Shown: piece after piece, positions 28,365 through 54,171 of the stretch
Layout of the letters: every line of letters starts with the position of its first letter
Position numbering within the stretch: the stretch's first letter is position 1
NCBI GenBank assembly: GCA_947628505.1
Contig: CANRAD010000002.1
Span: 62,001 to 126,000, forward strand
DNA: 64,000 nt
Direction of reading: 5' to 3'
From: an uncultured Clostridia bacterium
Lineage (GTDB): Bacteria; Bacillota; Clostridia; Christensenellales; Borkfalkiaceae
Position numbers and translations under genes: made by a program
The notes under the pieces: model-generated
What the model was told of the DNA's origin: nothing
Database searches by the model: none
What the model saw: the letters and a program-made list of their open reading frames with translations, nothing else

Positions 28365-28441
28365 ACCGAACGCGGTGTTGTCCTTACGCCGCGTGAGACC
28401 TGTTTTACAATTTAGCATTATCTTCGGTGTGTAATCGGCGT

Positions 28442-29083
28442 TTATTCGGCGTGCAGATTCTCACGGTATTTCGCAATTACATTGTATATATGCAAGCCGT
28501 TAAGCTCGGTCTTGTTTGCCTTAATATACTCATATAACCCGCGCATATCCACGCCTTCCAATATCCTGTTGTCCGTTCGTAAGTTGCCCGTTATAAACGG
28601 GAAATCTTGGCGTATCGTTTCCAACGTAATTTGTTTGGTGGAATGTTTCGCCGCTCTGTCGGACTGACATTTGCTCTTTAAAAGAGGTACTCTGATTGCA
28701 GAGAAATAGCTCTTTACGACAGCGCACTCCTCGTCTGTAACAAGCTCCTCGCCGAACATATATCCGCAGATTTGCTTGATTAAAATACCTGCCTCGCTGT
28801 CTTTCAAACAGAAGAATATGTTTGCGTAGATTGAACGGAAAGTAAACCGCCGCTCCCTTACAATGGGCGTGTTGTTGCCCGTTAGCTCGCGGTCTTTCTC
28901 GGCTTTGAAGCCGTCCGAAAGGAGTAGGAACAGGCAAGTTACTTTGTCCGTTGCAAGCTCGTCCGGCTCCTTGTCGCGGAACATATAGTCCACAAGTTTT
29001 TTTATGTACTGACCCGCCTCGGCGTGGCTCAAACTTGCGATGTTGTCCATATAGGACTTGTAAAAGTTGAATTGTTTTATCAT
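28442..29083 (-). CDS. DUF6291-like protein, replication/mobility associated
   Basis: A 213-residue protein made of two related halves: FYKSYMDNIASLSHAEAGQYIKKLVDYMF at the N-terminus and IYANIFFCLKDSEAGILIKQICGYMFGEEL near residue 85. This repeated pattern is typical of DUF6291-like proteins found near replication genes of phages and mobile elements. The rest (IRQDFPFITGNLRTDNRILEGVDMRGLYEYI) is not assigned by me. It starts with GGAGG upstream and precedes oriT and the relaxase in the same orientation. A role in replication or its control is inferred from company only. Confidence 0.6.
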   Translation of the reverse strand: MIKQFNFYKSYMDNIASLSHAEAGQYIKKLVDYMFRDKEPDELATDKVTCLFLLLSDGFKAEKDRELTGNNTPIVRERRFTFRSIYANIFFCLKDSEAGILIKQICGYMFGEELVTDEECAVVKSYFSAIRVPLLKSKCQSDRAAKHSTKQITLETIRQDFPFITGNLRTDNRILEGVDMRGLYEYIKANKTELNGLHIYNVIAKYRENLHAE

Positions 29084-29967
29084 GCTTCCTCCTTAAATTT
29101 TTTCTTGTTTGCCGTTGTTTTACGACTGCGGCGGAAGTCAAAAGTTTTGCATTGGAATTACACCTCCTTATTTATCTTTAATGTCCCCTCACTTGGTAGG
29201 CAAGTAAGAAGCCCTTTTCACAACCATTTTTAAAAAATTTTTTATGCCTTACAATTGGTAGTCAAGTGACAAGCCGGAATTATATAGGTTGACGAAAAAT
29301 TTTATTTAACATTTTTTAAGGTTTTACATAGCCTTTCACTTATTAGAGAAAAATCGGCCCACATACACCCATTTATTTAAAAACTTTTTTTCACTTTATA
29401 ATTTTACAAAACCAAACAAGTAAGTTTTTATTAGTAAATTAAACCCTCCTAACAACACCAAAAAAGCCGATGACTGCTTCTCCACAAGTCACCGACTTTA
29501 ACCGAATTTGGTATTTTATATTACCCTATGTTGGTTAGACATTCTATAAAGTTTTAGGTTGAGATTATCTCATATTACCCTCATATAATTAGATAAAATT
29601 ATCACCGAAAATTTCAAAAATCCAAAAAATTTTTTCTAAAAAATTGTACAACAACAAAGCCCAACCTCGCACAACGAAAAAACAATAAAGTCACGTCATA
29701 GACCTTTTAAAAGTGCAAGGCAGCTCGGCAAATCTTTTTGCCGAGTGAGAAGTAGGACATACTTCTCATCATACCGCCGCTTCATTGCGGCAAGGGCACA
29801 CTCCGCCCATCTGTAACTTAATTATAACACTATAATTTGCAAATCAAACAATTAAGTCACAATTTTTTGCTTTTATGTTTGGCAAAAGTTTGAATTGCAC
29901 AATTAGTCCTTTTGAATTTAATATCAATGTTTCCTATCATATCAAATCAAAAAAATTCAAATGAAAA
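29084..29967. other. 880-bp AT-rich non-coding region with several hairpins
   Basis: No credible gene. Two copies of a TTGGTAG(G/T)CAAGT(A/G)A(G/C)AAGCC motif lie at 29193-29213 and 29255-29275, each with a small ACTTG/CAAGT dyad, 62 bp apart. A stem AAAGCCGATGACT / AGTCACCGACTTT (29465-29500) with T-run on the minus strand looks like a terminator. Three adjacent hairpins follow: CTCGGCAAA/TTTGCCGAG (29724-29745), TGAGAAGTA/TACTTCTCA (29746-29768) and GCCGC/GCGGC (29776-29791). On the minus strand a TATAAT-like box precedes these, so they may form a small RNA; they could equally be a single- or double-strand replication origin of the element. Confidence 0.55.
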
Positions 29968-32721
29968 TCACATCCCCAATTTATTGCCGTAAAGAGTAGT
30001 ATTGGTATCCATCAAATTAGCATCGGTTTTAAGACGAGTATAGTAGCCAACTATTCCGCCCACATAACTGTTGCCTATAATTTCAGCTTCGTTTGTGCAA
30101 TATGTAATTTCGAAATAGCCATAAAAATAATCTTTTCCGCCTACGCCATAATTAATTATATTATTCATACCATAAACTTCACCAAATATTCCTCCTATAC
30201 GGTCATTGCCTTTTACTTTATTAATGTTTTTATTGCTTTTTACTGTATATGTAACATCTTTCTTACCTATAGGCATTGTCAAATAACCTGCTATTCCTCC
30301 AACTTGGATTTTTCCTTCTATTTCTCCATTATTTATGTTATTATCTGCTCTACCATTTGCGGAGATATTTAAATATCCGACAAGTCCACCCACATAGGAG
30401 CCATCAGTAATTTTAATATCTGCATTATTTGTACAGCTAATTATTCCAGTGCAATAGCCTGCTATTCCGCCTACATAAGATCTACTATTTCCGCTTTCAA
30501 TAATAGCTGTTGTTGAAACAATTTCACCATTATTTATCGCGTTTTCAATTATTCCGCTATATCCAGCAAACCCTCCAACATATCCTTTACCTGCAATTAT
30601 ATTATTATTTGTTTGTCCCGTAGCCTTTATATTTGTATCTGGTGAATATCCCACAAAGCCCCCAACATAATTCCCACCACAAATATTTGCGGTATTACTA
30701 CAAACATTCAATTTTGTCACTCTTGTTCCATACCCAATTAATCCACCTATATAATCTCCAACTCCAATTATTTCTGCTACATTGTCCAATATTGATATCT
30801 CAAAATAACCATAATAATAATCCTTACCGCCCACGCCATAATTAATTATTTTGTTCATACCGTAAACTTCCCCGATTATTCCTCCTATACAATTATTACC
30901 TCTTACTATGTTAGTGTTTTTATTATTTTCTACTGTATATGTAATGTTTTTCTTATCTGCGGGCATAGTTAAATATCCAGCTATGCCCCCAACTTTATCC
31001 GTGCCTACAACTTCTCCTTTATTTTCATTATTGTTAAGCATCCCATTGTTAGTTACATTAACATAGCCAACAAGCCCACCAACATAAATACCATTGTTCA
31101 CCTTAATGTCGGCATTATTAACACACTGAATAAGTCCATTGCAATACCCAGCTATCCCGCCTACATATGCTCGACTATCACTGCCTTCAACAATAACCCC
31201 AGTCGAAATTATCGTACCACTATTTATTGCATTTTGTATCACACCTGTATAGCCTGCAAAACCGCCAACATAGCCTTTACCAGTTATGGTATTGTTATTT
31301 TCCGATCCTGCTGCTTGAATATTTGTACCAGACGAATAGCCTACATAGCCACCCACATAGTTACCGCCGTTGATATCTGCTTTATTTTCACAAACCGTTA
31401 TTTTAGATAATGATGTTGCATATCCGACCAAGCCACCGACATAATCACTTCTACCTTGTATTTCTGCCGAATTTGAAGATTCCGATATTTCCGTGCCCCC
31501 AACACTTTTGCCTAATATACCCCCCACACAGCTATTCCCTTTCACGATATTGTTATTAATATCATTAACTATAGTTGTATTTACCGAGCAATATCCGGCT
31601 ATGCCCCCAACATTATCTGTTCCTTGAATTTCACCATTATTGCTATTGTTATTTATTTTATCATTACCGCTTGCAGAAATATTTCCGGCAATTCCACCAA
31701 CGTTATTTTTGCCTAAAACAGTTGCATCATTAGTGCAGTTTGATACAACAGAATTATTGTTATAACCTACAACTCCGCCGACATTGTCGTAGTACAACGG
31801 ATTAATCGTGCCGGAAACAGTAACCCCGTCTATCGTCCCTTGATTCGTGCCGCACAGTATGCCTGCCGTGCTGGCATCGCCGCGAGAGGTTATATTAGCA
31901 TTTTCAATTGTTAAATTCTTTACCGTGCCTTGCAATGTGCCGAATAATCCCAAATTGGAATCATTGACCGAGTTTATGGTTAAATTTTTAATCTTATAAT
32001 CACCGCCAATCAATGTGCCGCTAAAGCCGCTTATAGGTGACCAATTTTCTGCTGCCAAATCAATATCAGCACCCAAAATATATTTACCAGATGCATTATT
32101 CAACGCTTTAAGTTCGTCAGCCGATGATATTTTTTTATAATATTTGAACTCGTCGCCGACGGATGATTTGTCCTCCCACTCACACACAAAGCCTTTTATA
32201 GTGCTTGAACTTGACGCAAATACATTCCATTTGCCCGTTTTAGACCACCGTGTATCCGAGTTATTTGCATAAATCCCCAAATAATTTTCATTATCCCCAT
32301 GCGGCGCAGTGGGGTGCCAATTGGAATAATTAAATTCTTCCCCATGGATCCATACGAAATTTTGCCCGCTTTTATAGGCGCCCAACCAACAAGCGAAATT
32401 TACTTTTTTAACAATATTTTCAACAAAAGTTTGCTCTTCTTGACTTGTTATGGTAGCCAAGTGACCACCTAAATTTTCGCAATAGTTTTCAGCGTTCTGC
32501 CAATCCCTATGTTCTTTATATACATAATAGTAATGCCCGTTAAAAGAATACAGGTCTAAATTTAAATTATCAAAATGCTCCGTTGGGTAAGATATATTAT
32601 TCTCATCGTTATTACTATTCGGGTCAGAATTATCGCCGTTATTGTTGCAAGCGGCTAATCCGAACGAAATGCAAAATGCAGACATTATTGTTAACAGAAA
32701 AATAATTACGTTCCTTTTCAT
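29968..32721 (-). CDS. Lipoprotein with C-type lectin-like domain and GLUG repeats
   Basis: A 917-residue surface lipoprotein. Lipobox GLAAC puts the lipidated Cys near residue 25. Residues about 55-190 form a C-type lectin-like fold: FNGHYYYVYKEHRDWQNAENYCENLGGHLATI, then WLGAYKSGQNFVWIHGE and FVCEWED, with only part of the usual disulfides. The remainder (about 215-900) is a series of more than twenty GLUG-type units (VGGIAGYC, YVGGLVGYA, YVGGFVGYS) likely to form a beta-helix. The second half of the GLUG region is a near duplicate of the first (two stretches starting at ENNKNTNIVRGNN and KSNKNINKVKGND). It is the last gene of a four-gene operon, 5 bp after the M50-like protease gene. Confidence 0.9.
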   Translation of the reverse strand: MKRNVIIFLLTIMSAFCISFGLAACNNNGDNSDPNSNNDENNISYPTEHFDNLNLDLYSFNGHYYYVYKEHRDWQNAENYCENLGGHLATITSQEEQTFVENIVKKVNFACWLGAYKSGQNFVWIHGEEFNYSNWHPTAPHGDNENYLGIYANNSDTRWSKTGKWNVFASSSSTIKGFVCEWEDKSSVGDEFKYYKKISSADELKALNNASGKYILGADIDLAAENWSPISGFSGTLIGGDYKIKNLTINSVNDSNLGLFGTLQGTVKNLTIENANITSRGDASTAGILCGTNQGTIDGVTVSGTINPLYYDNVGGVVGYNNNSVVSNCTNDATVLGKNNVGGIAGNISASGNDKINNNSNNGEIQGTDNVGGIAGYCSVNTTIVNDINNNIVKGNSCVGGILGKSVGGTEISESSNSAEIQGRSDYVGGLVGYATSLSKITVCENKADINGGNYVGGYVGYSSGTNIQAAGSENNNTITGKGYVGGFAGYTGVIQNAINSGTIISTGVIVEGSDSRAYVGGIAGYCNGLIQCVNNADIKVNNGIYVGGLVGYVNVTNNGMLNNNENKGEVVGTDKVGGIAGYLTMPADKKNITYTVENNKNTNIVRGNNCIGGIIGEVYGMNKIINYGVGGKDYYYGYFEISILDNVAEIIGVGDYIGGLIGYGTRVTKLNVCSNTANICGGNYVGGFVGYSPDTNIKATGQTNNNIIAGKGYVGGFAGYSGIIENAINNGEIVSTTAIIESGNSRSYVGGIAGYCTGIISCTNNADIKITDGSYVGGLVGYLNISANGRADNNINNGEIEGKIQVGGIAGYLTMPIGKKDVTYTVKSNKNINKVKGNDRIGGIFGEVYGMNNIINYGVGGKDYFYGYFEITYCTNEAEIIGNSYVGGIVGYYTRLKTDANLMDTNTTLYGNKLGM

Positions 32722-32726
32722 AATAT

Positions 32727-33557
32727 TTATCCCCTATTTTTTATCTTTTCTATACAAGCAATGACAGCCTTTATTACAAAAGCCAACAATACGGTTATAC
32801 CGGCAAAAATTCCCGCTATTGCAAGGAAGCCTATTATTATGAACGAAAAAGACGTCATGGCACTCGTAGTTGCTTCCAACGCAGGCATAGACACGAAATA
32901 CATTATTATGTCTGCAATTAGAAGTAACGCCGCTATAAATAAAAAACCTTTGAATCCGCCTTTAATATCCGACGTGCTTAACTCCATATGACTTGCAATC
33001 ATAAAAGAAAGCACGATAAATACCCACCACAGAATACTTCCCGTGTTTGTAAAGCCGAAAATATCTTCGACTATATCCCAAAATATTTGCAAACTTGCAG
33101 AGTAGGTTGACGCCTCAAACAGGTTAAACGATATAAGCGGGATAAATTTAAGCTCGTCAACCACTTCCGAAAAAATACTCGGCACAAGCAAATACATTAA
33201 GAGGAATATTACTCCGCTTCCGCCCAAAATAGGTGCAATCCCTATAAAGAAGTTGCCGATTTGATGGTACAAATTTCTCGGATTATATGAATGATTGACA
33301 TAACCGAGCGTACCGTCCGAATCGGGCTGATACAGCTTTATTTCAGTAACTTTATGCCCAAAAACCACGCACATAAGAGCGTGGCTTAATTCGTGAACGG
33401 GCGTACCGATTATTCCCGTGGCAATAATTATTTTTGAAGCATTTTCGCCGACTATTTTATAAAATGCCTTTCGGCAGAGGGTAATCAATAGTCCGAAAAC
33501 TACGATTACCCCTACCGTAAATATAAGCTGATATAAAAAGTTATAAAGTATTTCCAT
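32727..33557 (-). CDS. M50-like integral membrane metalloprotease
   Basis: A 276-residue membrane protein with about six to seven helices. GTPVHELSHALMCVVFGH near residues 51-68 contains HELSH, the HExxH zinc motif of site-2-protease (M50) and related membrane proteins, placed in a hydrophobic helix. A second conserved loop may be FIGIAPILGGSGV near 110. The third metal ligand (usually NxxPxxxLDG) is not obvious, so this may be an M50-like protein of different function. It is between lipoprotein genes with 5-6 bp gaps on both sides, which suggests it acts on, or helps in export or shedding of, these lipoproteins. Confidence 0.7.
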   Translation of the reverse strand: MEILYNFLYQLIFTVGVIVVFGLLITLCRKAFYKIVGENASKIIIATGIIGTPVHELSHALMCVVFGHKVTEIKLYQPDSDGTLGYVNHSYNPRNLYHQIGNFFIGIAPILGGSGVIFLLMYLLVPSIFSEVVDELKFIPLISFNLFEASTYSASLQIFWDIVEDIFGFTNTGSILWWVFIVLSFMIASHMELSTSDIKGGFKGFLFIAALLLIADIIMYFVSMPALEATTSAMTSFSFIIIGFLAIAGIFAGITVLLAFVIKAVIACIEKIKNRG

Positions 33558-33563
33558 TTTCGC

Positions 33564-36428
33564 TTACGCTTGGTATTTAACGGTTACTTCAGTCGATAAA
33601 TTTGAATCGAGAAGATAATTTCCGCTTTCGTCAAATACACCGCCCAAAACCTGTACCTGAACTTTATACTCCGCATTCGGAGTTGTCATGGTGAACGTAA
33701 TTGAAACTTCATCACCGCTTTCCGCATATTTATCCGTTCTTTCCAATCCGCCTATAAAGAATTTATAGCCCGTTGCGGATTCATACTTCTTTATGGTAAT
33801 TTTTAATTGATTATTACCCGGTGTTGTATCTACTTTAAAGGCATTGGCATTAGTCAATTCCTCCTGTTGCTGTACGGGTTGCGTGAGGCGGTTGACCCTT
33901 TGAGTAAACGAATAAACTTCGGAATTTACAATGTCGGCATTATTACCGATTGCTCTTATGCTTATCTCGTACTCCCCCTCGGTAGTAAATTTGGGGGTGT
34001 ATGAATTTGTATCAATTGAAGTCCAAGTTGCATCTCTGCTCAATTTGATTTCATACCCGACTGCTTGCGGCACTATATCCCAAGTATAATTTGCGCCTGA
34101 TTTAGTTACAGAAGTTATTGCAGCTAACTTTGTAAAATTAAACTCATTCGAGCGAGGCGAATCCACGGTCTGAACATTATCACCGTTTGCAACAACCGAA
34201 ACAACGTAATTCCCGGCTTCAAAATTGCTCATAGAATATGAAGTACCCGTAACCCTTACGCTTTGTTCATCGCCATTGTCTTTTCTGAAATATAACGTGT
34301 AGTCATTTGCATTTATGCTGTCAACCGACGAGGGATTCCATACAAGATTATCGCCGTTAACTTTTACGTTGGCAGGTCTGTTATACTTGCTTATCGTGCG
34401 CGTTGCGGATACATCCGAATCGATAATATCCGAACCGTTGCCGACGGCAAACACGCTAATCTGCGTACCCATTCCTTCATTTATGCTGCTTAAATATCCG
34501 AGTAAAGCAAACGAGGTTGAATCGGCATTGTATTCTTGAGTTCCGAGAATAACCCTATATGCGGTTGCATGGGGAACTTGCGCCCAAGTTAAATTGCCGC
34601 TTACTATATTGAGACTTGTGGGCGTAGCTAATTTGGTAACGGAAAGCGCATTTGAAAATCCCCCCGTAATTACTTCTTCACTGTTGCCCATAGCCTGAAC
34701 GTATATAGTATGCTCGCCTGCCGCAAGGTCGGTTATCGTATAGGACGTTGTAGTTATTTCTGTTCTGTTTCCGTCTATTGTAAGAACGTATTTGCTTGTA
34801 TGATTTACGTTATCCCACGATAACTGCCTGCCGCTGATTGCAAGATTTTGAGGCGTAGCAAGTTTTGTAACATTAAATTCAAGAGGAACGTTACTGTCAA
34901 GAACTGCACCGTTTGAAGTTACCTTGCCGCGCGCAACTATTTTAAAGTTTACGACCGATTCTTCCGTTTTGTTTGTCATTTTTGAAAGGTCAACGGAGAA
35001 CGTAGTGCCGCTTGTAACAGTAGCAATTTCCACGTCGTCGGCAAGCAACGCATAACTTTCCGCACCTACAACGGCATTAAAGGTCACGGAAACCTGATTT
35101 TGTTCCAAAGGTCTGTTTACAATATTATGATTTTTAGGCGTTGCCAATCTCTTTACGGAATACGCAGTACTGTATTTGGATTCATACACGCCTCCCGTTC
35201 CGAGAGTTGTCGCCTTGACCTCCACAAGATAGTCGCCTGCATCCGTGAATGGATAGGAATATACAAACGTATCCTCACCGACAGAAGCCGTATGCACTAC
35301 TTCCGTTCCTTTTTTAATTCTTAAAGTATATCCCGCACTGCCTGCAACTTGATTCCAACGGATCACTCCGTCACCGTAAGTTACCACGGGACTACGCAGT
35401 ATAGATAATGTTATTTCTTCCGACCAATGCGAGAAATAAAAATCACTTGAACCGAGAGGTAATATCTGAATTCTGTAACTCGACCCGCTGTAAATTTCGC
35501 TGAACTCGTTGGTAGTCAAATCCTCGTTGCGGACAATGCCGTTAATCTTGATTCTGTATCTGACTGCGTTTTGCGACGCCGACCATTTAAGCACACCGTC
35601 AACAACATTCAAACCTTCAACGGGTGCAATATAGGTGTAGGATAAAGCCTCGCTGTAAACCGAATCATATACTTTTGACGTAGCGTTACCTACCGCGTAC
35701 ACGGAAATCTGAAAATCCTGATTACCGGCTATATAGTCATAGCTGTTTGTTGAAGTTTCAAATTCCTCGTTGCCTATTTTAATGACGTAACCCGTTGCGG
35801 AATCGACTTTATCCCATCTGAAAGTTTCGCTGTCATATGTAATGTTTTGAGGCGTAGAGAGAACAGAGCCTGTTATAGTGTCGCTCCAAACCGAAAAGTA
35901 AGGAATATTTCCGTCTGTGCTTTCGGCTTGTCCTTTTAACGCCCTGACCTTAAAAGTGAAAGAGCCGCTTTCGGAAGGGTAGCTGGTTGTTTTGGCAGAA
36001 GATATCTGTCCGTTATACATAACCTCGTAACTTTCCGCCGTATCCAAAGCCGCCCAAACAAAATTACCTTGTTCTACTTTTACTTCGGTTACTTGCCCTA
36101 TATTTTCAAACCGAATAGAATATGTGGGGTTTTTATCGTCGCCCTCTTTTATTACGGCTTCTATATAGAAATCAAAATCCTCGCCCTTTGAATCATAGCG
36201 ATATGAAACTTTATCGGTAGCTTGACTTACTATTGCCTCATCGCCGTTATCGATTTTAATTTTATAGTTTTTGGCGTTTTGCACGCTATCCCATGTTATT
36301 GTTTCGCCGTTATAGGTTAAATTGGTTATACTTTTCGCACCCTCATCGTTTGAACAAGCCGCGAATATAACCGCAATACCCATAATCATCAATAAACTGA
36401 TAATTAAAACCACTAATTTTTTCTTCAT
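33564..36428 (-). CDS. Lipoprotein with about ten fibronectin-III-like repeats
   Basis: A 954-residue lipoprotein (MKKKLV, hydrophobic core, FAAC at about residue 25). The mature protein is a string of beta-sandwich repeats of about 85-95 residues of fibronectin III type, each with a W-x-x-V-x-x-A-x-x-Y signature such as ITWDSVQNAKNYKIKID, FRWDKVDSATGYVIKIG, IRWNQVAGSAGYTLRIK and LTWAQVPHATAYRVILG. No catalytic or sorting motif is seen. It lies 6 bp before the protease gene and 17 bp after the LRR lipoprotein gene in one operon. A stalk-like or binding function at the cell surface is likely. Confidence 0.88.
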   Translation of the reverse strand: MKKKLVVLIISLLMIMGIAVIFAACSNDEGAKSITNLTYNGETITWDSVQNAKNYKIKIDNGDEAIVSQATDKVSYRYDSKGEDFDFYIEAVIKEGDDKNPTYSIRFENIGQVTEVKVEQGNFVWAALDTAESYEVMYNGQISSAKTTSYPSESGSFTFKVRALKGQAESTDGNIPYFSVWSDTITGSVLSTPQNITYDSETFRWDKVDSATGYVIKIGNEEFETSTNSYDYIAGNQDFQISVYAVGNATSKVYDSVYSEALSYTYIAPVEGLNVVDGVLKWSASQNAVRYRIKINGIVRNEDLTTNEFSEIYSGSSYRIQILPLGSSDFYFSHWSEEITLSILRSPVVTYGDGVIRWNQVAGSAGYTLRIKKGTEVVHTASVGEDTFVYSYPFTDAGDYLVEVKATTLGTGGVYESKYSTAYSVKRLATPKNHNIVNRPLEQNQVSVTFNAVVGAESYALLADDVEIATVTSGTTFSVDLSKMTNKTEESVVNFKIVARGKVTSNGAVLDSNVPLEFNVTKLATPQNLAISGRQLSWDNVNHTSKYVLTIDGNRTEITTTSYTITDLAAGEHTIYVQAMGNSEEVITGGFSNALSVTKLATPTSLNIVSGNLTWAQVPHATAYRVILGTQEYNADSTSFALLGYLSSINEGMGTQISVFAVGNGSDIIDSDVSATRTISKYNRPANVKVNGDNLVWNPSSVDSINANDYTLYFRKDNGDEQSVRVTGTSYSMSNFEAGNYVVSVVANGDNVQTVDSPRSNEFNFTKLAAITSVTKSGANYTWDIVPQAVGYEIKLSRDATWTSIDTNSYTPKFTTEGEYEISIRAIGNNADIVNSEVYSFTQRVNRLTQPVQQQEELTNANAFKVDTTPGNNQLKITIKKYESATGYKFFIGGLERTDKYAESGDEVSITFTMTTPNAEYKVQVQVLGGVFDESGNYLLDSNLSTEVTVKYQA

Positions 36429-36445
36429 TTTTATCCTCCTAAAAG

Positions 36446-38560
36446 TTAAAACTTATCAGCAGTCCATATATGGTCGGAAATTTCTTTCCATTTGTCCGCC
36501 GAACGATATTGTTCGAGAACATCGGGCGTGTTCTTGATATATATACCGTAATCGGCGTTTATTCCTTCAAAAACATTATCTCCGAGAATAGGCGGCAATC
36601 CCTCTAAAATAATCGAAGAAAGTGACGAACAGTTATAAAATGCCCTATCGCCTATTTCCTCAATGTATTGTGTGAGGGTTATCTTCTCTATGGGTGAAAA
36701 CGAAAAGGCATTTGCGGAAATCTTAACAATTTTATGCGCATTCAATATTTCCGGCACAACCACTTCCGCATCCGTTCCGAAATACTGCCTTATCGCATAA
36801 CCGCCTTCAACCTCCTCAACGGCGTAATCGCCGAAAATATTGCCCAAAGAGTAGATTGATTGACTGAAATCTTTCCACTTGTTTGCTATTTGAAAATTTC
36901 TGATAACTCCGCTCGGAACATATATTGAAAAGGTTTGCGCAACTCCGTCAAATACATTATCCCCTAACGTCGGCACTTTACTTATTTCGATTATCATTGC
37001 TTTCAAGTTCAAGCAATTTGCAAAAACGCTGTCTTCAAACGATATGCTCGTCGAATTTGAATTTAATTTAACGCTTACAAGATTTCTGCAATTTTCAAAT
37101 GCTCCGTTTTCAATAGAAGAAATTTTTCCGCCGAGAGTTATGCTCTGTAATTTGGAACTGCTGAATGCATATTCCGAAATTCTTGTCGTTGAAGAATCTA
37201 TTTCATATGTTTTTCCATCTTTATTGGCAGGATACTGAATTATATATGAGGAGTTGCCGACCTTGTAATAAAGCACCCCGTTCAAAGCTGAATACCTTTC
37301 GTTTCCTGCCCCAACGGTAAATTCTTTTAGCATTGCCATGTTTCTGAAAGCACCGTCGCCTATCGAATTGACATTATCGGGAATTTCAATTTCCTCTATC
37401 AACGAACACCCGGAAAAAGCCTCCTTGCCTATGGTTGTTACGGCGTTTGGTATAATAATTGAAGACAATTTTTCGCATCCGCTGAAAATTCTTTCGGGAA
37501 GGCTTTGGACGGATAGCGGAATGTTTACTTTTTCCAAAGCATTACAGTTTTGAAAAGCACCGGAAGATATTTGCTTTATACTTTGAGGCAAAAGTACCGT
37601 TTTTAATGTCGACGACTGTACGCTTTTCAACCGCGTAACCGGTTTACCGTAATATGAATCGGGTATAACTATCTTTTCGTCATTGCCGCTGTAAGACACT
37701 TCGTATTCTCTATCGCTTGTGAATGAAATCGTTTCAAACAGTAAAATGTTATTTGTCCCTTCAGTAAACTTTGCGTATAACGCTACCGAACTATCAAAAT
37801 GTTCGGGAATTGTAAAAGGAAAACTAATCGGTGACAAATGCGTTTGGTCAAGGCACCAAGCCTCGAAACAGAAGTTATCTTTTGTGGAAACAGGTAAGCT
37901 ATTTAACACCGTTCCGATAGGATACGAAACACTTTCAACTGCGCTCCCATCAGTAACAAAATTAAACATCACCGTTTTAATTCCCCAATGAGCGTATAAG
38001 GTTGAACCGTTTTCGCCTTTGGGATAAACGGAAAAATTATATACATTTGCCGATTCCGAAAAATTACCTATTGAATCTACTATTTGATTACCGTCGGTTT
38101 CGGCTGTGTACCATCCTTGAAATGAATATCCCGTCCTCAAAGGTATAGGGAAACGGTCTGTTATCTCTTCGTCATAAACAACCGAAATTTCATCAACTTC
38201 GTTTTGCGAAGTTGCGCCGCAATATTCAAATTTTATTTTATATGTGTTTGCACTCCAATGGGCATAAACGCTTGTGGAATTATTTTCTTTCCACGTTATT
38301 CCTGCACTACTTCCGGAGGAATCGGTATATGCCGAACCACCTTCGACTTCGCTATACCACCCCCAAAACGTATATCCATCTTTTTCAAGCGCATCAAATG
38401 AATATTCGTTTCCCAATATGACAGTTTCTTCTCTTAAAAACTCATCTCCGTCAAATAACGACACTTTAACCGATTTTTGATTTGTACAAGCACAAACAGT
38501 TAAAATTACCGATACAAGAATTAAGAATATGATTATCGGAAGACATATCTTCTTTCTCAA
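36446..38560 (-). CDS. Lipoprotein with Listeria-Bacteroides (Flg_new) and LRR_5 repeats
   Basis: A 704-residue lipoprotein, first gene of the surface operon. The start is a TTG at 38560 with GGGAGGAG five bases upstream. The signal ends at VCAC (residue about 25). Residues about 30-265 hold three Listeria-Bacteroides repeats (DGYTFWGWYSEVEGGSAY, RTGYSFQGWYTAETDG, FCFEAWCLDQTH) as in InlB, and about 300-700 BspA-like LRR_5 repeats (VTTIGKEAFSGCSLIEEIEI, NSIGDGAFRNMAMLKEFTV). This domain pair is typical of adhesins of gut Clostridia. Ligand unknown. Confidence 0.9.
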   Translation of the reverse strand: MRKKICLPIIIFLILVSVILTVCACTNQKSVKVSLFDGDEFLREETVILGNEYSFDALEKDGYTFWGWYSEVEGGSAYTDSSGSSAGITWKENNSTSVYAHWSANTYKIKFEYCGATSQNEVDEISVVYDEEITDRFPIPLRTGYSFQGWYTAETDGNQIVDSIGNFSESANVYNFSVYPKGENGSTLYAHWGIKTVMFNFVTDGSAVESVSYPIGTVLNSLPVSTKDNFCFEAWCLDQTHLSPISFPFTIPEHFDSSVALYAKFTEGTNNILLFETISFTSDREYEVSYSGNDEKIVIPDSYYGKPVTRLKSVQSSTLKTVLLPQSIKQISSGAFQNCNALEKVNIPLSVQSLPERIFSGCEKLSSIIIPNAVTTIGKEAFSGCSLIEEIEIPDNVNSIGDGAFRNMAMLKEFTVGAGNERYSALNGVLYYKVGNSSYIIQYPANKDGKTYEIDSSTTRISEYAFSSSKLQSITLGGKISSIENGAFENCRNLVSVKLNSNSTSISFEDSVFANCLNLKAMIIEISKVPTLGDNVFDGVAQTFSIYVPSGVIRNFQIANKWKDFSQSIYSLGNIFGDYAVEEVEGGYAIRQYFGTDAEVVVPEILNAHKIVKISANAFSFSPIEKITLTQYIEEIGDRAFYNCSSLSSIILEGLPPILGDNVFEGINADYGIYIKNTPDVLEQYRSADKWKEISDHIWTADKF

Positions 38561-38575
38561 CTATACTCCTCCCAT

Positions 38576-38648
38576 ATGAACAAATTTTATATTTTTTGTT
38601 CATCTATTAAAACAATAGGCGAACAGAACACGAGGGTTTGTTCGCCTA
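38576..38648 (-). promoter_or_regulatory. Two inverted repeats in the leader of the surface operon
   Basis: ATGAACAAA / TTTGTTCAT (38576-38603) lies directly before the ribosome binding site, and TAGGCGAACA / TGTTCGCCTA (38616-38648) precedes it and is followed on the minus strand by TTGTTTTAATA, like a weak terminator. The first could hide the ribosome binding site or serve as an operator; the second may stop read-through from the recombinase gene. Confidence 0.5.
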
Positions 38649-38808
38649 TATGGTAAATTATGTAAATTGAGCTTTTACATTTACTTAAATTTCAACAATT
38701 TTCTTGACTATTCGCTTTTATAATGCTAAAATTTATATGTAGAGATACATCTATTGTTTTATTGTATGAACAAAATCGTGAGCCTCGGCTTGCGGTTTTT
38801 TTATTGTT

Positions 38809-39717
38809 TTACTGTAAGTTTTTGCCAAGCTTATTCATCATCGCGCACTTGCGTTCCATAAGACTGTGAACATATCTTTTCAGCGTTATCGCAGGGTCGT
38901 TGTGCCCCAAAATTTCCGATAAAGTCTTGACGTCCATTCCGCACTCTATCGCCCGCGTTGCAAATGTATGCCGCAAACTGTGAAAACCTTTATGCGGTAT
39001 GTGCAAACGGTTCAGCAGTAACTCAAAAGTCCTTTGGTATGACCTTATCGAAATCTCTGCCCCGTCACTTCCGCTTATAACGTAAATGCTTTTGCTATGC
39101 CTTTTCATTTCTCTCAAATATGGAATTACCGTTCTCGGAATTGGAATTACTCTGCGTGAACTTCTTGTCTTAGGCGTGTCTGTTGTCTTTTGATACTTAC
39201 CGTTTTCCCAACCGTCGTGGCAGGTTTTTGAGACGGTTATCAGACCTTTTACAAAGTCTATATCGCCCCATTCGAGGGCGAGCAGCTCGCCTATCCGCAA
39301 CCCCGTGTACAGACACAGTAATATGCCGTACAGCTTGGGTTTTTTCTTGCCGATTATGAATTGCTCTATTTGCCGTTGTTCGGCTGTTGAGAAGCACTCG
39401 ATTTGCTTTTCTTCGTGCTTTGGATACTGAATACTACCCGAATACTGCCTTTGCACTAATCCCATTATTTCGGCGCGTTGCAGGGAATTTTTGAGTACGG
39501 TGATTATTCCGTTGACCGTGTTTGCGGCGTATCTCTCGGTTATTTTTGCCGTGAAGTTTTGAAGAACCGAAGAAGTCAGAAGGTCCATTTCATATTCACC
39601 CAAATCTGGAATTATAAGCCGCGTTGCTATATCGCTGTATCTTTGGTATGTCCGTAATTTTTTGAGCGGCTTGACTGTTGTCATAAGCCACTCATTCAGC
39701 CATTGTTTGTATTGCAT
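38809..39717 (-). CDS. Tyrosine recombinase/integrase (paralogue of the one at 18.1 kb)
   Basis: A 302-residue recombinase, complete: Arg in YTGLRIGELLALEW near 150, HSLRHTFATRAIECG, His in LSEILGHNDPAI and Tyr in LKRYVHS. It matches the enzyme at 18.1 kb in length, in domain order and in many positions (both end CAMMNKLGK.LQ), although one is chromosomal and the other lies inside the integrated element. It is directly upstream of the surface lipoprotein operon, in the same orientation. It may be a remnant of a nested element or a recombinase that rearranges the surface operon. I found no convincing repeat pair around it. Confidence 0.92.
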   Translation of the reverse strand: MQYKQWLNEWLMTTVKPLKKLRTYQRYSDIATRLIIPDLGEYEMDLLTSSVLQNFTAKITERYAANTVNGIITVLKNSLQRAEIMGLVQRQYSGSIQYPKHEEKQIECFSTAEQRQIEQFIIGKKKPKLYGILLCLYTGLRIGELLALEWGDIDFVKGLITVSKTCHDGWENGKYQKTTDTPKTRSSRRVIPIPRTVIPYLREMKRHSKSIYVISGSDGAEISIRSYQRTFELLLNRLHIPHKGFHSLRHTFATRAIECGMDVKTLSEILGHNDPAITLKRYVHSLMERKCAMMNKLGKNLQ

Positions 39718-39745
39718 ATCTTCTCCATTAAATTTATTTGTGCAA

Positions 39746-39781
39746 AAATTATACGCCGCTCGGAAGAGCGGCGTATAATTT
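39746..39781. terminator. Strong hairpin upstream of the recombinase gene
   Basis: A perfect 16-bp stem, AAATTATACGCCGCTC (39746-39761), loop GGAA, then its complement (39766-39781); on the minus strand TTTTTGC follows. It would block read-through from the radical SAM operon into the recombinase gene. Confidence 0.8.
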
Positions 39782-39867
39782 ATATTTACTTTCTATCCTT
39801 GCTTATATTAATTTTTATTGGTGCAAAACAAATAGTTAACCTATTTACATTAGTACATTATATTAAA

Positions 39868-39895
39868 AAATAACGGATATAAATCTCCGTTATTT
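39868..39895 (-). terminator. Terminator of the radical SAM peptide operon
   Basis: AAATAACGGA (minus strand, 5' side 39886-39895) pairs with TCCGTTATTT, followed by T-rich TTTTAATATAAT, 20 bp after the radical SAM stop codon. Confidence 0.8.
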
Positions 39896-39914
39896 TTCTA
39901 TTTGCTTTATATGT

Positions 39915-41195
39915 TTAAGATTCATTAATATATCTATCTAATAAGTGCCTTATATAATATTCACTATAAAAACAAGAATCGCCCTCAGGTAAATCTTGCT
40001 TTTGTGCCGGACAACCTCCTAAACAAATAGGAAATATTTTACATTTCTTACATATTTCAAGAGGTTCATTTTTTATAAATCTCATCAAATAATCGTTGTA
40101 AAATAGACCTGTAGTTATATTTCCAATGATTTTATCTTCTTGCCCAACATGATGTTCGCATTTATATAATTCTCCATCGGGTCCTATTACTTTATTTTGC
40201 AATTTAAAAAGTCCACAAAAAGTTTTATTATATTTATATAAGCGAGGATTATATTTTCTTCCCATTAATTCGCAAATATATTTATCAAATTCAATTCTTT
40301 TATTATCAAATTCAATTTGCGATAAAAATTTTTCGCCTCTACACCCAGCATAATCAATAAGTTTGGCGAGATAAATATTAAGATTTTTATGATTACCACA
40401 AGTATCAACTAATTGCTTGGCTACTATTTTCAAATCATCATAATTATTTCCATCACAGTTAAGTCGAATCGAAACTTTAACAAAATCTAATGAATCTTTA
40501 ATGTTTTTTATTAAATTATTATATTGTTTTATTGTTGCTCGTTTCCTTTTGCAGTAAACTTCTTCTGTCCCATCTACAGTTATCTGTACTCTCTTTAAAC
40601 TGCATTCTTTAGATAAATATTCAACCTTTTCTTTATCTAAAAGAACACCATTAGTTATCATGCTTGCAGTATAATTGATGACTCGCTTGTTGATTAATGA
40701 TTTAAAGTAATCGTTAAACTTAATAATTTGAGAATAAGCAATTAACGGCTCACCCCCAAACCATCCAATATTTACCGCTTTAATATCAGTATCAATATCT
40801 TTCTTGATATATTCAGCTACTGCTTTAATTGTTTGATCACTGATTGTCTTATTAGTTCTAAATCCATTTTCAAAACAATAATCACAATTTAGATTACATG
40901 AAAGCGTTGGTGCAATTACAAATGTTCGAGATTTTGATGATTGAGACAGTATCGTTATTTGCTCATTCAATATAATTTTATTATATTCATTTAAAGCTAC
41001 TGGTTTTATTAATCCTTGATTCAATAATTCGTCAAAATAGTTACACTTGTATTTATCATCAATTTCATTTTTCAAAATTAATTCATATATTTCCTTTTCC
41101 AATTTGCATAATGCACCAGAAAACGAATTATATAAATAAACGAATCTATCAGTTTTTTTTAAAACAATATTATAGTAGGAACAATTATATTTCAT
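39915..41195 (-). CDS. Radical SAM/SPASM peptide-modifying enzyme
   Basis: A 426-residue radical S-adenosylmethionine enzyme. LSCNLNCDYCF gives the 4Fe-4S motif CxxxCxxC at Cys 100, 104 and 107; GWFGGEPLI is the SAM-binding GGE motif, and about ten further Cys between residues 300 and 415 (FCGLFKL, LYKCEHH, CKKCKIFPICLGGCPAQ) form a SPASM domain with extra clusters. Residues 1-90 are a helical N-terminal part that could bind the leader peptide. The start (ATG 41195) lies 2 bases after the stop of a Cys-rich peptide gene, so it is translationally coupled. Such enzymes usually make thioether or other crosslinks at Cys of ribosomal peptides; the linkage here is unknown. AT-rich, unlike the chromosome. 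Confidence 0.9.
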   Translation of the reverse strand: MKYNCSYYNIVLKKTDRFVYLYNSFSGALCKLEKEIYELILKNEIDDKYKCNYFDELLNQGLIKPVALNEYNKIILNEQITILSQSSKSRTFVIAPTLSCNLNCDYCFENGFRTNKTISDQTIKAVAEYIKKDIDTDIKAVNIGWFGGEPLIAYSQIIKFNDYFKSLINKRVINYTASMITNGVLLDKEKVEYLSKECSLKRVQITVDGTEEVYCKRKRATIKQYNNLIKNIKDSLDFVKVSIRLNCDGNNYDDLKIVAKQLVDTCGNHKNLNIYLAKLIDYAGCRGEKFLSQIEFDNKRIEFDKYICELMGRKYNPRLYKYNKTFCGLFKLQNKVIGPDGELYKCEHHVGQEDKIIGNITTGLFYNDYLMRFIKNEPLEICKKCKIFPICLGGCPAQKQDLPEGDSCFYSEYYIRHLLDRYINES

Positions 41196-41197
41196 AA

Positions 41198-41338
41198 CTA
41201 ATCTTGAGAACAACCCATTCCATCGCCACTGCACTCATAATCATAGTCACAGCCACAATCATCACAATCACAGGAACAGTAATCATCACAATCATTATAG
41301 CTGTTATTAAACATATTAGCCTTAATTAAAATTTCCAT
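41198..41338 (-). CDS. Cys/Asp-rich precursor peptide D (46 aa)
   Basis: A 46-residue peptide beginning MEILIKANMF, with eight Cys in the second half (CDDYCSCDCDDCGCDYDYEC and a final GCSQD). The spacing CxC and DCDC with alternating Asp is striking. It has AAAAGGAG seven bases before its ATG and ends 2 bases before the radical SAM gene. Its first residues match the start of the three other peptides of the operon (ME/K-I/V-LI-x-A/S-N), which marks a shared leader. No GG-type or other cleavage site is obvious. I infer that it is a substrate of the enzyme. Confidence 0.82.
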   Translation of the reverse strand: MEILIKANMFNNSYNDCDDYCSCDCDDCGCDYDYECSGDGMGCSQD

Positions 41339-41366
41339 TTTATTTCTCCTTTTAAATAATTTTAAA

Positions 41367-41564
41367 TTAAGCACCCATCATACAATCATCATAACGACAA
41401 TCGACATCACAAGTGCAATCATCTTTTGAACAATCCCCATCACAATAAGTTTTTGAATAATAATCTTTATCACACGAACAATAGTTATCACAATCACAAG
41501 CACAATAAATATCACAATCTGGTTCAATGGACTTTAGTAAATTTGATGCAATCAATATTTCCAT
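41367..41564 (-). CDS. Cys/Asp-rich precursor peptide C (65 aa)
   Basis: A 65-residue peptide beginning MEILIASNLLKSIEPDCD, with twelve Cys in DC, CxC and YC pairs and the C-terminus YDDCMMGA. GAGGAGG lies six bases before ATG 41564; an apparent start five codons earlier is inside this ribosome binding site. The last residues DDCM(M/I)GA are shared with peptide B, so the two are recent duplicates of different length. It lies 28 bp upstream of peptide D. Heavy Asp content suggests either metal binding or a strongly acidic modified peptide. Confidence 0.82.
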   Translation of the reverse strand: MEILIASNLLKSIEPDCDIYCACDCDNYCSCDKDYYSKTYCDGDCSKDDCTCDVDCRYDDCMMGA

Positions 41565-41588
41565 CCCTTTCCTCCTCAAAAATTGATA

Positions 41589-41726
41589 TTAAGCACCTAT
41601 CATACAATCATCCCCGTGATAATAATTAGCATCACATGAACAATCTTGACAGTCATTGCAATCATTATCGCAAGTTCCATTATTCATAAATTGAGTAAAT
41701 GGATTTGCTGAAATCAATACTTCCAT
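41589..41726 (-). CDS. Cys/Asp-rich precursor peptide B (45 aa)
   Basis: A 45-residue peptide beginning MEVLISANPFTQFMNN, with six Cys (TCDNDCNDCQDCSC and DDC) and the C-terminus HGDDCMIGA, nearly the end of peptide C. AAGGAG lies seven bases before its ATG. It starts 30 bp after the stop of the membrane protein gene and is followed 24 bp later by peptide C. Leader-like start and Cys-rich core follow the same plan as the other three peptides. Confidence 0.8.
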   Translation of the reverse strand: MEVLISANPFTQFMNNGTCDNDCNDCQDCSCDANYYHGDDCMIGA

Positions 41727-41756
41727 AATACACTCCTTAATTTAATAATAGGCTAA

Positions 41757-42356
41757 TTATTGCTGACTTGCTCTAGTTATTTCTTCCAGAGAGTAGCTTA
41801 TACTCAGTTGATTATTTAAAATGTTAAGATGTTTAGTACCTAAATATTTCCTTAATAAGTACACCTCATCTTTTCTCTGTCCATATTGGGCATCCGAGCT
41901 AATTTTATATAGAAAATGTTCTTCTGCTTCAGTTAAATAATCAATTCTGCATTCCATTTTATAAAAAATATCGTTTGCCAAAACCGTAGGAATAACAATC
42001 GGTCTATCTTCTACTATCGTGCCCACATTACAATCTATAATAAGCTTATTGTCAATTAAAACTTTAATTTGACAATTATTGATTTTGGATTTTTCTATGT
42101 TTTTAATAATCATACAAAAATTAGAATTGCTTAATATTGTTAGCCCATTATATAAATCTGTAAATATTCGAGCATTTTTGATAGCAGCTCGATCACTTAT
42201 ATTATCAGTCTTATCTAAAAACGATACTGCAGGCACTACTCTTCTGTGCTTTTTATCATAATATCTTTGAAAACCGATAGTAATTGCCAAAGTTATAATA
42301 CTTGTAATTAAAGCCATTATACTTGCAATTAAAGTAAAAAAATCATCAGTTGTCAT
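41757..42356 (-). CDS. Membrane-anchored protein of the peptide cluster, unknown function
   Basis: A 199-residue protein with one N-terminal membrane helix (residues about 8-30, FTLIASIMALITSIITLAIT) and a soluble, mainly beta-strand-like remainder of about 165 residues. I do not recognise the family. It starts 8 bases after the stop of peptide A (the stop, AGGTAAG and ATG follow each other closely) and sits between peptide genes A and B, so it is certainly part of the operon. Possible roles are immunity, export aid or anchoring of the modified peptides; there is no ABC transporter or protease next to it. AT-rich like the radical SAM gene. Confidence 0.75.
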   Translation of the reverse strand: MTTDDFFTLIASIMALITSIITLAITIGFQRYYDKKHRRVVPAVSFLDKTDNISDRAAIKNARIFTDLYNGLTILSNSNFCMIIKNIEKSKINNCQIKVLIDNKLIIDCNVGTIVEDRPIVIPTVLANDIFYKMECRIDYLTEAEEHFLYKISSDAQYGQRKDEVYLLRKYLGTKHLNILNNQLSISYSLEEITRASQQ

Positions 42357-42364
42357 TTACTTAC

Positions 42365-42505
42365 CTACACAGCATCGCTACACTCATAGCCGTTATCAAC
42401 ACAATATGCCGAACAATCATTATTGCATGTATCTGGGGATTCATACTCTTCACATATGTCTTTAGAATCAAAGTCAAAATTATTAGAATTTATTAAAATT
42501 TTCAT
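42365..42505 (-). CDS. Cys-rich precursor peptide A (46 aa)
   Basis: The first gene of the cluster, 46 residues, beginning MKILINSNNFDFDSK, with five Cys (ICEEYES, TCNNDCSAYC, YECSDAV). It is less Asp- and Cys-dense than peptides B to D, but the start follows the same M-x-I-L-I-x-x-N pattern. AAGGA lies eight bases before the ATG. About 260 bp of AT-rich sequence upstream, to the nuclease gene, should hold the promoter; I could not settle on one (a TATAAAG/TATAGC stretch at about 42,540 is a candidate). Confidence 0.72.
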   Translation of the reverse strand: MKILINSNNFDFDSKDICEEYESPDTCNNDCSAYCVDNGYECSDAV

Positions 42506-42769
42506 ATGTATATTCCTTACTATCTTACAATATTTGTTTGCTATACTTTATAGACGATATGAAAGTTTACTTTGTTACAGCAACTTATAAAAGAAACTAT
42601 AAGTGAAAATGACACCAACTTAAAGCCAGCACTATAACCATATACTAAAAATAAAATACCATATACTCTTTAATATGTCAAGTAAAGGAGGAAGTTTGTA
42701 TGGCGTCCTCCTTTACAGCATTTGTTTTTCTTTTATTTTTAGGATAATTTATGCTTATTTTAATAATTA

Positions 42770-43813
42770 TTATTCCACACCCTCGGCAAGCTCTATATAC
42801 TCTTTTAATTTCTTTTGTAATAGCTTTTTGTCAATGAGTTTGAGCTTGTACTCCGAAACCATTGTCGGCGAAAGCGAGCGGCTTAAAGCGTATTCCACAA
42901 CTTCGTCGTCCTTCTTGGCGCAGAGTATTACGCCGACGCTCGGATTTTCGTTCGTTTTTTTCACGTCGCGGTCGAGAGCTTCGAGATAAAGATTCATCTT
43001 GCCGACATACTCAGGCTTAAACTCGTCAATTTTTAGTTCAAACGCCACAAGGCAAGAAAGCCCGCGGTGATAGAAAAGTAGGTCGATATAATAGTCATGC
43101 CCGCCCACCTGCAAGCGGTATTCCTCACCGATAAATGAAAAGTCCTTGCCTATTTCCAAAATAAAATTCTTCAAGTTCCGCACGATTGACTTTTGCAAAT
43201 CTTTTTCGCTGACGACTTCGGGGACATCGAGAAATTCCAAAGTGTAGGTGTCGAGAAAAGCGTTCGACGTGCTTTTCTTTGCTTCGGTTATTGCAGGCGT
43301 TGTCGGCTTTTGAGAAAGCATAAACCGCTCATAATAAGCGCTGTCTATCTGACGGGCAAGCTCGCGTTTTGAATATCTTTCCTTTACGCACAACGCCATA
43401 TAAAAATAACGTTCTTCGGCAGACTTGCAAGACGACATTATTTGCAAATGGTTAGTCCAACTCAATTGTGTCAACAGCGTTGACACTTTTTCATCGGAAA
43501 TGCCGAATAATTGTGTCACCACTGGTGACACTTTTTCATCTTTGCCATAAAGTTCGTAGAATTGCCGCATACGGTAAAGTCCCCGACGGGTAAATCCTTT
43601 GAGTTCGGGGTAATTTTTAGCGAAAAAGTCGGCAAGACCTTCCACATAAGAATCGCCATAAGCTGCATTGCGGGAATTTTCGGACACATATTTGCCGATT
43701 TGCAAATACATGTTGATGAGTTCCTCGTTTACCTTATAGTACGCGCGCTCCCGCGCCGCCTGAATAATTTTTACGATTTCGGAATAACTGTTGTCCGGCA
43801 ACATATAACTCAC
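42770..43813 (-). CDS. DUF1016 (YhcG-type) PD-(D/E)XK nuclease domain protein
   Basis: A 347-residue protein of the YhcG/DUF1016 family. The N-terminal half (residues about 10-150) is the DUF1016_N helical domain (INMYLQIGKYVSE, YPELKGFTRRGLYRMRQFY). The C-terminal half has the nuclease core GHDYYIDLLFYHRGLSCLVAFELKI, with Asp and ExK as expected for PD-(D/E)XK enzymes. Start: GTG 43813, or ATG three codons later with AGGTGAG before it, which I think equally likely. Such proteins are frequent on mobile elements, where they are linked to restriction modification or processing of DNA. It is the last gene before the right end. Confidence 0.88.
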   Translation of the reverse strand: MSYMLPDNSYSEIVKIIQAARERAYYKVNEELINMYLQIGKYVSENSRNAAYGDSYVEGLADFFAKNYPELKGFTRRGLYRMRQFYELYGKDEKVSPVVTQLFGISDEKVSTLLTQLSWTNHLQIMSSCKSAEERYFYMALCVKERYSKRELARQIDSAYYERFMLSQKPTTPAITEAKKSTSNAFLDTYTLEFLDVPEVVSEKDLQKSIVRNLKNFILEIGKDFSFIGEEYRLQVGGHDYYIDLLFYHRGLSCLVAFELKIDEFKPEYVGKMNLYLEALDRDVKKTNENPSVGVILCAKKDDEVVEYALSRSLSPTMVSEYKLKLIDKKLLQKKLKEYIELAEGVE

Positions 43814-43935
43814 CTGAAAATATTTAGGAATATTTTAATACTCATAGTTTATATCAAATCCTTGATATTGTCAACCGCAATGAATTGTTGAAGGTTAAAA
43901 ATGCCCCCGTTTTGCTTTAAAACAGACGACTTATT

Positions 43936-43963
43936 GTTTGGGGGATAATTGGGGGATTGGGAA
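43936..43963 (+). other. Candidate integrase arm-type sites, right end
   Basis: TTTGGGGGATAATTGGGGGA, matching the left-end copy at 25586-25605 base for base over GGGGGATAATTGGGGGA. It lies about 90 bp inside attR. Confidence 0.5.
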
Positions 43964-44048
43964 AGACAAAATATAAAAAACTGCGATTTTTAGCCGATTT
44001 TTGCTCAAAAACGGCTCATTTTGAGGATATTTTTACTCACCGAATTTC

Positions 44049-44093
44049 CTCTGACTCCGTCATTCGTTGGTTCGAATCCAGCTACCCCAGCCA
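44049..44093 (+). pseudogene. Displaced 3' end of tRNA-Gln (attR)
   Basis: From the anticodon loop to CCA: the 18-bp core, then GTTGG-TTCGAAT-CCAGC, a perfect T-arm, and TACCCCA-G-CCA. The 5' half is missing (ACTCACCGAATTTC precedes), so it is not a gene. Its acceptor strand would pair with the TGGGGTG of the intact tRNA at 25437, which supports the view that this is the chromosome's original 3' end. Confidence 0.88.
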
Positions 44094-54169: not shown

Positions 54170-54171
54170 TA

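Follow-up and report, generated by a model that had tools for sequence, protein, structure and literature searches.

Which product arises when a single radical S-adenosylmethionine (SAM) enzyme with a SPASM domain is encoded together with four small peptides rich in cysteine and aspartate? The question is raised by an operon on the minus strand (39915-42505) of a 64,000-nucleotide stretch of DNA from an uncultured Clostridia bacterium (Borkfalkiaceae; GenBank assembly GCA_947628505.1, contig CANRAD010000002.1, positions 62,001 to 126,000), here called the window; coordinates refer to the window unless a related locus is named. The operon is transcribed in the order peptide 1, a protein of 199 amino acids, peptides 2, 3, and 4, and the enzyme. 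An earlier note on this DNA had read it as a locus for ribosomally synthesized and post-translationally modified peptides (RiPPs), one enzyme serving several substrates, and this is supported by the operon, by a conserved leader, and by homologous loci in which enzyme and peptides are again paired; the coordinates and the cysteine counts (5, 6, 12, and 8) were reproduced. It is very likely that the four peptides are substrates of this enzyme, and the locus is a genuine and conserved RiPP cluster, familiar in kind but apparently using a new substrate code.

Peptide 1 (42365-42505; 46 residues, 5 Cys) begins with MKILINSN, peptide 2 (41589-41726; 45 residues, 6 Cys) with MEVLISAN, peptide 3 (41367-41564; 65 residues, 12 Cys) with MEILIASN, and peptide 4 (41198-41338; 46 residues, 8 Cys) with MEILIKAN; peptides 2 and 3 also share their tails (DDCMIGA and DDCMMGA), DCDC runs occur in peptides 3 and 4, and peptide 3, with 12 Cys and 14 Asp in its 65 residues, has the highest content of the operon. 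The likeness of the starts, already remarked in the earlier note, extends to nothing else in the genome: a DNA pattern slightly wider than M[EK][IV]LIxxN has four matches in all 1,713,578 bases, each of them the start of one of these peptides, and the reversed control has none in the same genome. With all four matches in one operon, the shared start is therefore not a matter of chance.

Peptides 2-4 are each preceded by a Shine-Dalgarno-like AGGAG or GGAGG and peptide 1 by a weaker AAGGA. The ATG of the enzyme gene (39915-41195, minus strand; 426 amino acids) follows two bases after the stop of peptide 4, and judging by this spacing the enzyme is therefore probably translated by coupling to that peptide. 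A promoter-like site upstream of the operon (42653-42681, minus strand; TTGACA-17-TATTTT, its second hexamer preceded by TG) and, beyond the enzyme gene, a hairpin with a T-tail (39866-39897; reported on the plus strand, near-symmetric) are consensus matches only, and promoter-like sites are no commoner than in shuffled sequence (21 observed, 23.5 in the shuffles). Over 39730-42700 the GC content is 28%; the recombinase and nuclease genes that flank this DNA are both at 44%.

The arrangement of Cys and Asp was first assumed to have CxC and DCDC as its core motif, an assumption replaced by CX2D once Asp had been counted at each offset from each core Cys and compared with 3000 composition shuffles. 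In the window, Asp stands at +3 of 18 of the 31 Cys (7.6 expected), a count reached in none of the shuffles; the rule rests on peptide 3 (9 of 12 Cys) and peptide 4 (6 of 8). A second set, which does not include the window, consists of six peptides from four related loci (L209-L212) that were found by their enzyme and not by the motif; the peptides were picked by hand according to position, Cys content, and leader, and the second and third systems of L211 were left out (the second, with CNPD repeats, has 4 CX2D at 6 Cys, and the third 1 at 5). Here Asp occupies +3 of 25 of the 46 Cys (10.1 expected), again reached in 0 of 3000 shuffles. When only the non-Cys residues were shuffled, the +3 count was reached once in 3000 for the window and never for the second set. 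Asp is scarce at +4 (3 in the window against 7.4 expected, and 3 against 9.9 in the second set), so that CX3D repeats of the PapB type are not what the window precursors contain, and it is not raised at +5 (6 against 7.2, and 8 against 9.6). Interleaved CxCDxD units number five in the window (0.44 expected; 0 of 3000) and three in the second set (0.55 expected; 70 of 3000).

Other steps and other lineages show preferences of their own. Four peptides of a locus outside the clade of the window enzyme (L155, the same as L030) have Asp at +3 of 19 of 35 Cys (5.8 expected); these are near-copies, four of the five small Cys-rich open reading frames (ORFs) there, so that the count is not independent from peptide to peptide. 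Four peptides of the clade member L034 favor +4 (7 observed, 1.6 expected, 0 of 3000), and the peptides of the more distant L037 and L035 favor +1 (15 observed, 5.0 expected).

The enzyme, its clade, and the peptides beside its relatives

The Radical_SAM family of Pfam was found in the enzyme, which carries a CxxxCxxC motif at C100, C104, and C107 and SPASM cysteines at C327, C346, C382, C385, C391, C395, and C408. These ten presumptive iron-sulfur ligands (three radical-SAM, seven SPASM) are invariant in alignments of 12 and of 7 rows; the residue following Cys346 is Glu (CEH or CEN) across the 7-row set and Trp in 9 rows of the 12-row set. At an E limit of 10, a search of NCBIfam gave 53 families, and among the best 25 of these 53 the enzyme lies under the cut-off for 24, the SPASM domain alone passing (50.7 bits, cut-off 27). 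The best family match is TIGR04463 (186.7 bits, cut-off 525), and the Clo7bot maturase TIGR04334 (152.4, cut-off 600), CefB (123, cut-off 600), and the SCIFF/CteB maturase TIGR03974 (80, cut-off 425) are likewise below. The statement of the earlier note that the locus matches no class known to its author has to be corrected in that the layout has a precedent in Clo7bot and other TIGR04463-like loci. Matches to viperin in PADLOC were weak, and this identity was rejected. With a profile of the clade as query, the closest solved structure is 5wgg (E 5.2e-29), which we take to be CteB, the thermocellin maturase. The N-terminal ~90 residues align with those of Clo7bot-like maturases (hhalign, 97.7%), indicating homologous N-terminal regions, and this domain would probably be a RiPP recognition element (RRE).

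Two trees were calculated. In the first (30 rows), a branch supported at 99/99 parts 23 rows, including Clo7bot and CefB, from the window, L009, L034, L035, L037, L038, and the outgroup; together with the family cut-offs this speaks against Clo7bot as the lineage of the window enzyme. The second (35 rows) groups the window with L209, L210, L212, L009, L211a, and L034 at 91/86, pairs the window with L209 at 100/99, and leaves the deeper order unresolved. The seven-member clade is thus moderately supported; L215, discussed below, is in neither tree.

The earlier note had proposed to look for homologous enzymes accompanied by small Cys-rich peptides with a MEILI-like start, and had held that homologues lying without such peptides would speak against its reading. 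Such pairs were found at related loci, and within the clade the peptides lie beside the enzyme in six of the seven members. L209, in genome G1214, repeats the layout of the window with a homologue of the 199-residue protein (233 residues; 22%, E 7e-10 in a single pairwise comparison), then two peptides, the first beginning MEIIIETAN... and the second, whose start codon is GTG, MELIIKSQS..., and then the enzyme. The L210 peptide, MEILIKAKPNF..., has 5 Cys, and the one at L211 has 14 along with 16 Asp; of the two peptides of L212, one is made up almost wholly of CX2D units (7 of 8 core Cys), and the filler and the gaps between these units vary. L034 has four short tandem peptides with MK.IK... 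starts; L009, the exception, lies on a short contig and has just a 27-residue ORF with 3 Cys. Farther away, L035 and L037 have peptides of the MxFY/MKFF type. Across the wider family a leader of the form M-x-hydrophobic-[LIV]-[IV] recurs (e.g., MTYLIEGNS, MKYLINGS, MQMLIEGT), and the Clo7bot leader reads MKFIKKP.

Small ORFs (ATG starts, 24-110 residues, at least 4 Cys, 7% Cys) were scanned up to 1.4 kb from each of 36 enzyme genes. Peptides carrying three or more CX2D were found at 6 of the 36 loci (the window, L209, L210, L211a, L212, and L155), five of which belong to the seven-member clade. It should be noted that these thresholds miss the second peptide of L209, with its GTG start, and three of the four peptides of L184, which have 3 Cys, and that the coordinates used for the enzyme of L215 were wrong, so that its peptide was read separately.

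Some of these loci have features of their own. At L155 (G640:C90), a TIGR04463-like enzyme is preceded by a tandem row of five small ORFs rich in Cys, of which four are CX2D-rich, and the next gene resembles, by eye, a putative cobalamin-type radical-SAM protein. At L211 (G1111:C4, 2562-7531 of that contig, reversed strand), three radical-SAM-like genes, one on the opposite strand, lie within ~5 kb; each adjoins a small ORF rich in Asp and Cys, one with CNPD repeats, and a gene for a phage-type replication protein is nearby. L034 and L037 share one 467-kb IMG/VR contig, which thereby holds two different Asp/Cys-rich peptide systems; the contig is classed as viral by IMG/VR, but the terminase model PF03237, the sole model tried, found nothing on it, and we do not treat it as a phage.

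Proposed chemistry and its alternatives

Like ranthipeptide loci in general, the operon has a radical-SAM/SPASM maturase gene beside Cys-rich precursors, and its product would be thioether-crosslinked peptides of this type. In the scheme we propose, the N-terminal domain of the enzyme, the putative RRE, would recognize the leader M-E-[IV]-L-I; the radical-SAM center would take the Cbeta hydrogen from Asp, a SPASM cluster would hold the Cys thiol, and the Cys sulfur would be joined to the Asp three residues on (CX2D, i to i+3). This would happen repeatedly along each peptide, interleaved CxCDxD pairs giving two locked rings. The i/i+3 bond is proposed because PapB makes an analogous Cys-Asp bond: in freyrasin, PapB links the Cys sulfur with the Cbeta of Asp wherever a CX3D motif occurs, be it in line or nested, and binding of the leader by an RRE is expected (PMC9413430); a further study has an auxiliary cluster binding the Cys thiol, the hydrogen being abstracted at C3 of Asp (PMC10470005). 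On the CX2D enrichment in the window and at related loci, the invariant iron-sulfur Cys, the match to 5wgg, and these two papers, the formation of Cys-to-Asp (+3) thioethers is the account that we favor on balance.

Several observations weigh against it. Peptides 1 and 2 hardly obey the CX2D rule (1 of 5 and 2 of 6 Cys), and the clade members L009 and L034 are without the pattern. L215 (G923:C7; 31% for the enzyme) has a peptide with the leader MEVLLKAN and 6 Cys but 1 Asp, and therefore leader and Asp-rich core are separable. Under the filter of the small-ORF scan, 9 of the 36 enzyme loci, most of which are more distant, have no candidate peptide. Steps other than +3 are also raised: -1 in the window (14 against 8.2 expected, 26 of 3000), an excess that is gone when Cys are held fixed (303 of 3000) and is not seen in L209-L212 (8 against 10.8), and -2 in L209-L212 with Cys fixed (15 against 9.2, 24 of 3000). 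On the side of the enzyme, the score against PapB (NF047865) is 102.4 bits at a cut-off of 340, and its N-terminal ~90 residues align weakly with those of SCIFF maturases (hhalign, 34.6% over 26 columns). Finally, a compact run of Cys and Asp could hold a metal.

The alternative that survives best is another linkage, either an S-Calpha sactionine or a bond from Cys to a residue besides the +3 Asp, with Asp serving for charge or turn formation. In its favor, SPASM enzymes make several thioether types (PMC8326336), the Clo7bot peptides have 0-3 Asp each, and CX2D are few in peptides 1 and 2. We nevertheless consider another linkage unlikely, given that +3 is the sole Cys-to-Asp step raised in both independent sets, also with Cys fixed.

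Less probable still are metal-binding peptides, metallothionein-like or acidic and chelating, partly modified or not at all, with Cys and Asp as ligands. The earlier note had found that the alternation of Asp and Cys fits no class and had considered a metal-binding product; the alternation is present, but it now points to Cys-Asp crosslinking like that of freyrasin with another spacing, ahead of metal binding. The density of peptide 3, the CxC pairs, and the lack of a transporter among the element ORFs scanned (see below) would suit a chelator, whereas the coupling of the peptide genes to a radical-SAM/SPASM enzyme, the conserved leader, and the pairing kept in homologous loci do not, and ligation alone would not predict a depletion of Asp at +4 beside enrichment at +3. 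That slippage of TGTGAT-like codon repeats in AT-rich DNA produced a pattern without chemical meaning, as the DCDC runs of peptides 3 and 4 and the low GC content might suggest, is very improbable, since a two-residue repeat would lift +1, +3, and +5 jointly and +5 is not raised, and since the filler and gaps of the L212 array vary.

Under the crosslinking account, the leader would not be removed and the product would be kept in or at the cell. A product retained there, perhaps with the membrane-anchored protein, is plausible. The earlier note had pointed to the absence of an ABC transporter, and this holds among the element ORFs scanned: none was found by Pfam in 11 of the 12 of at least 150 residues, the twelfth overlapping another gene; shorter ORFs, apart from the four peptides, were left out of the scan. 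Two weak peptidase matches in the element, M50B-like at 32727-33557 and M26_N at 29968-32721, are both under their cut-offs. The single-pass membrane protein reported amid the peptide genes is the 199-residue ORF between peptides 1 and 2 (41757-42356, minus strand), which has one N-terminal hydrophobic segment followed by basic residues (both by eye), suggesting a cytoplasmic domain anchored in the membrane. No family was found for it in Pfam, PADLOC, or PHROG, and two NCBIfam matches are both far below their cut-offs. Any role of the product for the element, in competition, stability, or defense, would be a guess.

Taken further, and only tentatively, the locus may represent a rare mobile SPASM lineage whose CX2D substrates would end up with as many as nine i/i+3 Cys-Asp rings, interleaved in the CxCDxD units; its relatives would keep other steps (CX3D in L034, CD-rich in L035 and L037), the maturases would differ in a ruler for ring size, and the products would stay in the cell and serve the element. 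PapB tolerates CXnD spacings of n = 0-6 in vitro (PMC9413430), which raises the question of what determines ring size in nature; homologous enzymes paired with different Cys-Asp steps (CX2D, CX3D, CD-rich) make this question testable by substrate swaps. If the proposal is true, multiply stapled acidic peptides as cargo of mobile elements would be a product type of possible use in peptide engineering.

The mobilizable element and the distribution of the enzyme

The peptide operon is cargo of an integrative mobilizable element at a tRNA-Gln (25467-44066). Its integration site is the tRNA-Gln(CTG) at 25437-25511 (plus strand), whose anticodon arm contributes the 18-bp core CTCTGACTCCGTCATTCG at 25467-25484; the core is repeated at the right end (44049-44066, plus strand), where the 3' portion of a second tRNA-Gln comes next, reaching to about 44093. 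In a relative, G048 (L179), one intact tRNA-Gln marks, by sequence comparison, the empty site: its upstream DNA resembles the left side of the window (after a gap, 61 bases outside the tRNA match at 79%) and its downstream DNA the right side (a match of 91% over 106 bases that take in the tRNA end). From the repeated cores and this site, the element is therefore ~18.6 kb long. The mobilizable element named in the earlier note is thus confirmed: it encodes an integrase and a relaxase, att repeats flank it, and a relative has the site unoccupied. A tyrosine recombinase (25751-27028) adjoins the tRNA, followed by a Mob_Pre relaxase (27234-28157); a second tyrosine recombinase (38809-39717) adjoins the peptide operon, and on the other side of the operon lies a YhcG/DUF1016 PDDEXK nuclease (42770-43813), all on the minus strand. 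The nuclease matches the PADLOC candidate defense models PDC-S02. Similar integrase or mobilization DNA beside the same tRNA was found in 3 of 12 relatives fetched (L173, L180, and L183, from other species of the genus).

Mobile genes also occur near other relatives: a serine recombinase downstream of the cluster at L209, the phage-type replication protein at L211, an endolysin gene at L035, and, judged solely from the sequence by eye, a transposase-like ORF adjoining L009; none was seen among the neighbors scanned at L210 (one) and L212 (three). BspA-type leucine-rich-repeat proteins are encoded near the cluster in the window (36446-38560) and in L209 (6511-9948 there). Elsewhere in the window, 53474-59378 contains type II CRISPR genes, with Csn2, Cas1, and a Cas9 of 1338 residues.

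Relatives of the enzyme are scattered. Counts of matching genomes, each including the own genome, are 7 of the 150 nearest to the window at E 1e-15, 18 of 396 for the order and 10 of 391 for the class at E 1e-30, and 5 of 398 for the phylum at E 1e-42, where a six-row alignment as query gave 19 at E 1e-60. In four of the six other matching near genomes the loci are SCIFF-like, and the own genome and genus carry SCIFF-like loci of their own (L002, L007, and L008); all of these are so named by their six-Cys peptide. The order search yielded the close relatives G1214 (54%), G1077 (39%), G1111 (36%), and G1219 (34%). At E 1e-45, 1 of 74 genomes in the family of G1214 and 1 of 34 in the genus of G1077 matched, in each case the genome itself, and this scattered occurrence fits horizontal transfer. 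Viral contigs searched with the enzyme alone gave two stretches, neither confirmed; further viral scans gave no relative above 33% to the window enzyme (one scan covering the best 80 of 146 matches), and plasmid and phage records reached at most about 33% to the query among the matches listed (two scans, the best 30 of 75 and 20 of 70). Genome contigs searched with a two-row alignment gave one locus from 292 stretches, which is L009, and no new close relative.

Comparison with known systems

A literature search, with most subscription journals and all preprints outside it, found neither CX2D together with RiPPs nor anything on Clo7bot, and for FlmE, OhkG, TIGR04463, CefB, geopeptide, and TIGR04334 nothing related by title among the matches listed. 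In layout, the closest counterpart is the Clo7bot system (CtpM, TIGR04334), in which one SPASM maturase likewise accompanies several tandem short Cys-rich peptides with a short hydrophobic leader, and in Clo7bot and other TIGR04463-like loci, as here, the leader is without a GG site (by eye). The Clo7bot peptides are, however, poor in Asp, and the window enzyme lies far under the family cut-offs of Clo7bot, TIGR04463, and CefA-CefB. The SCIFF peptides with their CteB-type maturase (thermocellin) also combine a SPASM enzyme with a Cys-rich peptide, but there a single six-Cys precursor carries a different motif.

For the linkage itself, two enzymes offer precedents. QhpD is a radical-SAM enzyme that links Cys to the methylene carbons of Asp or Glu, but its substrate is a dehydrogenase subunit, in which the linked residues are separated by 6-9 positions (Cys7-Glu16, Cys27-Asp33, and Cys41-Asp49), and not a set of small tandem peptides (PMC8172795). 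Freyrasin (PapA/PapB) comes nearer, since a radical-SAM/SPASM enzyme acts there on a Cys-rich peptide with repeated Cys-Xn-Asp, in line or nested (PMC9413430); it differs in its spacing, CX3D instead of the CX2D seen here, and the cluster of the window has several precursors per enzyme and is carried by a mobile element.

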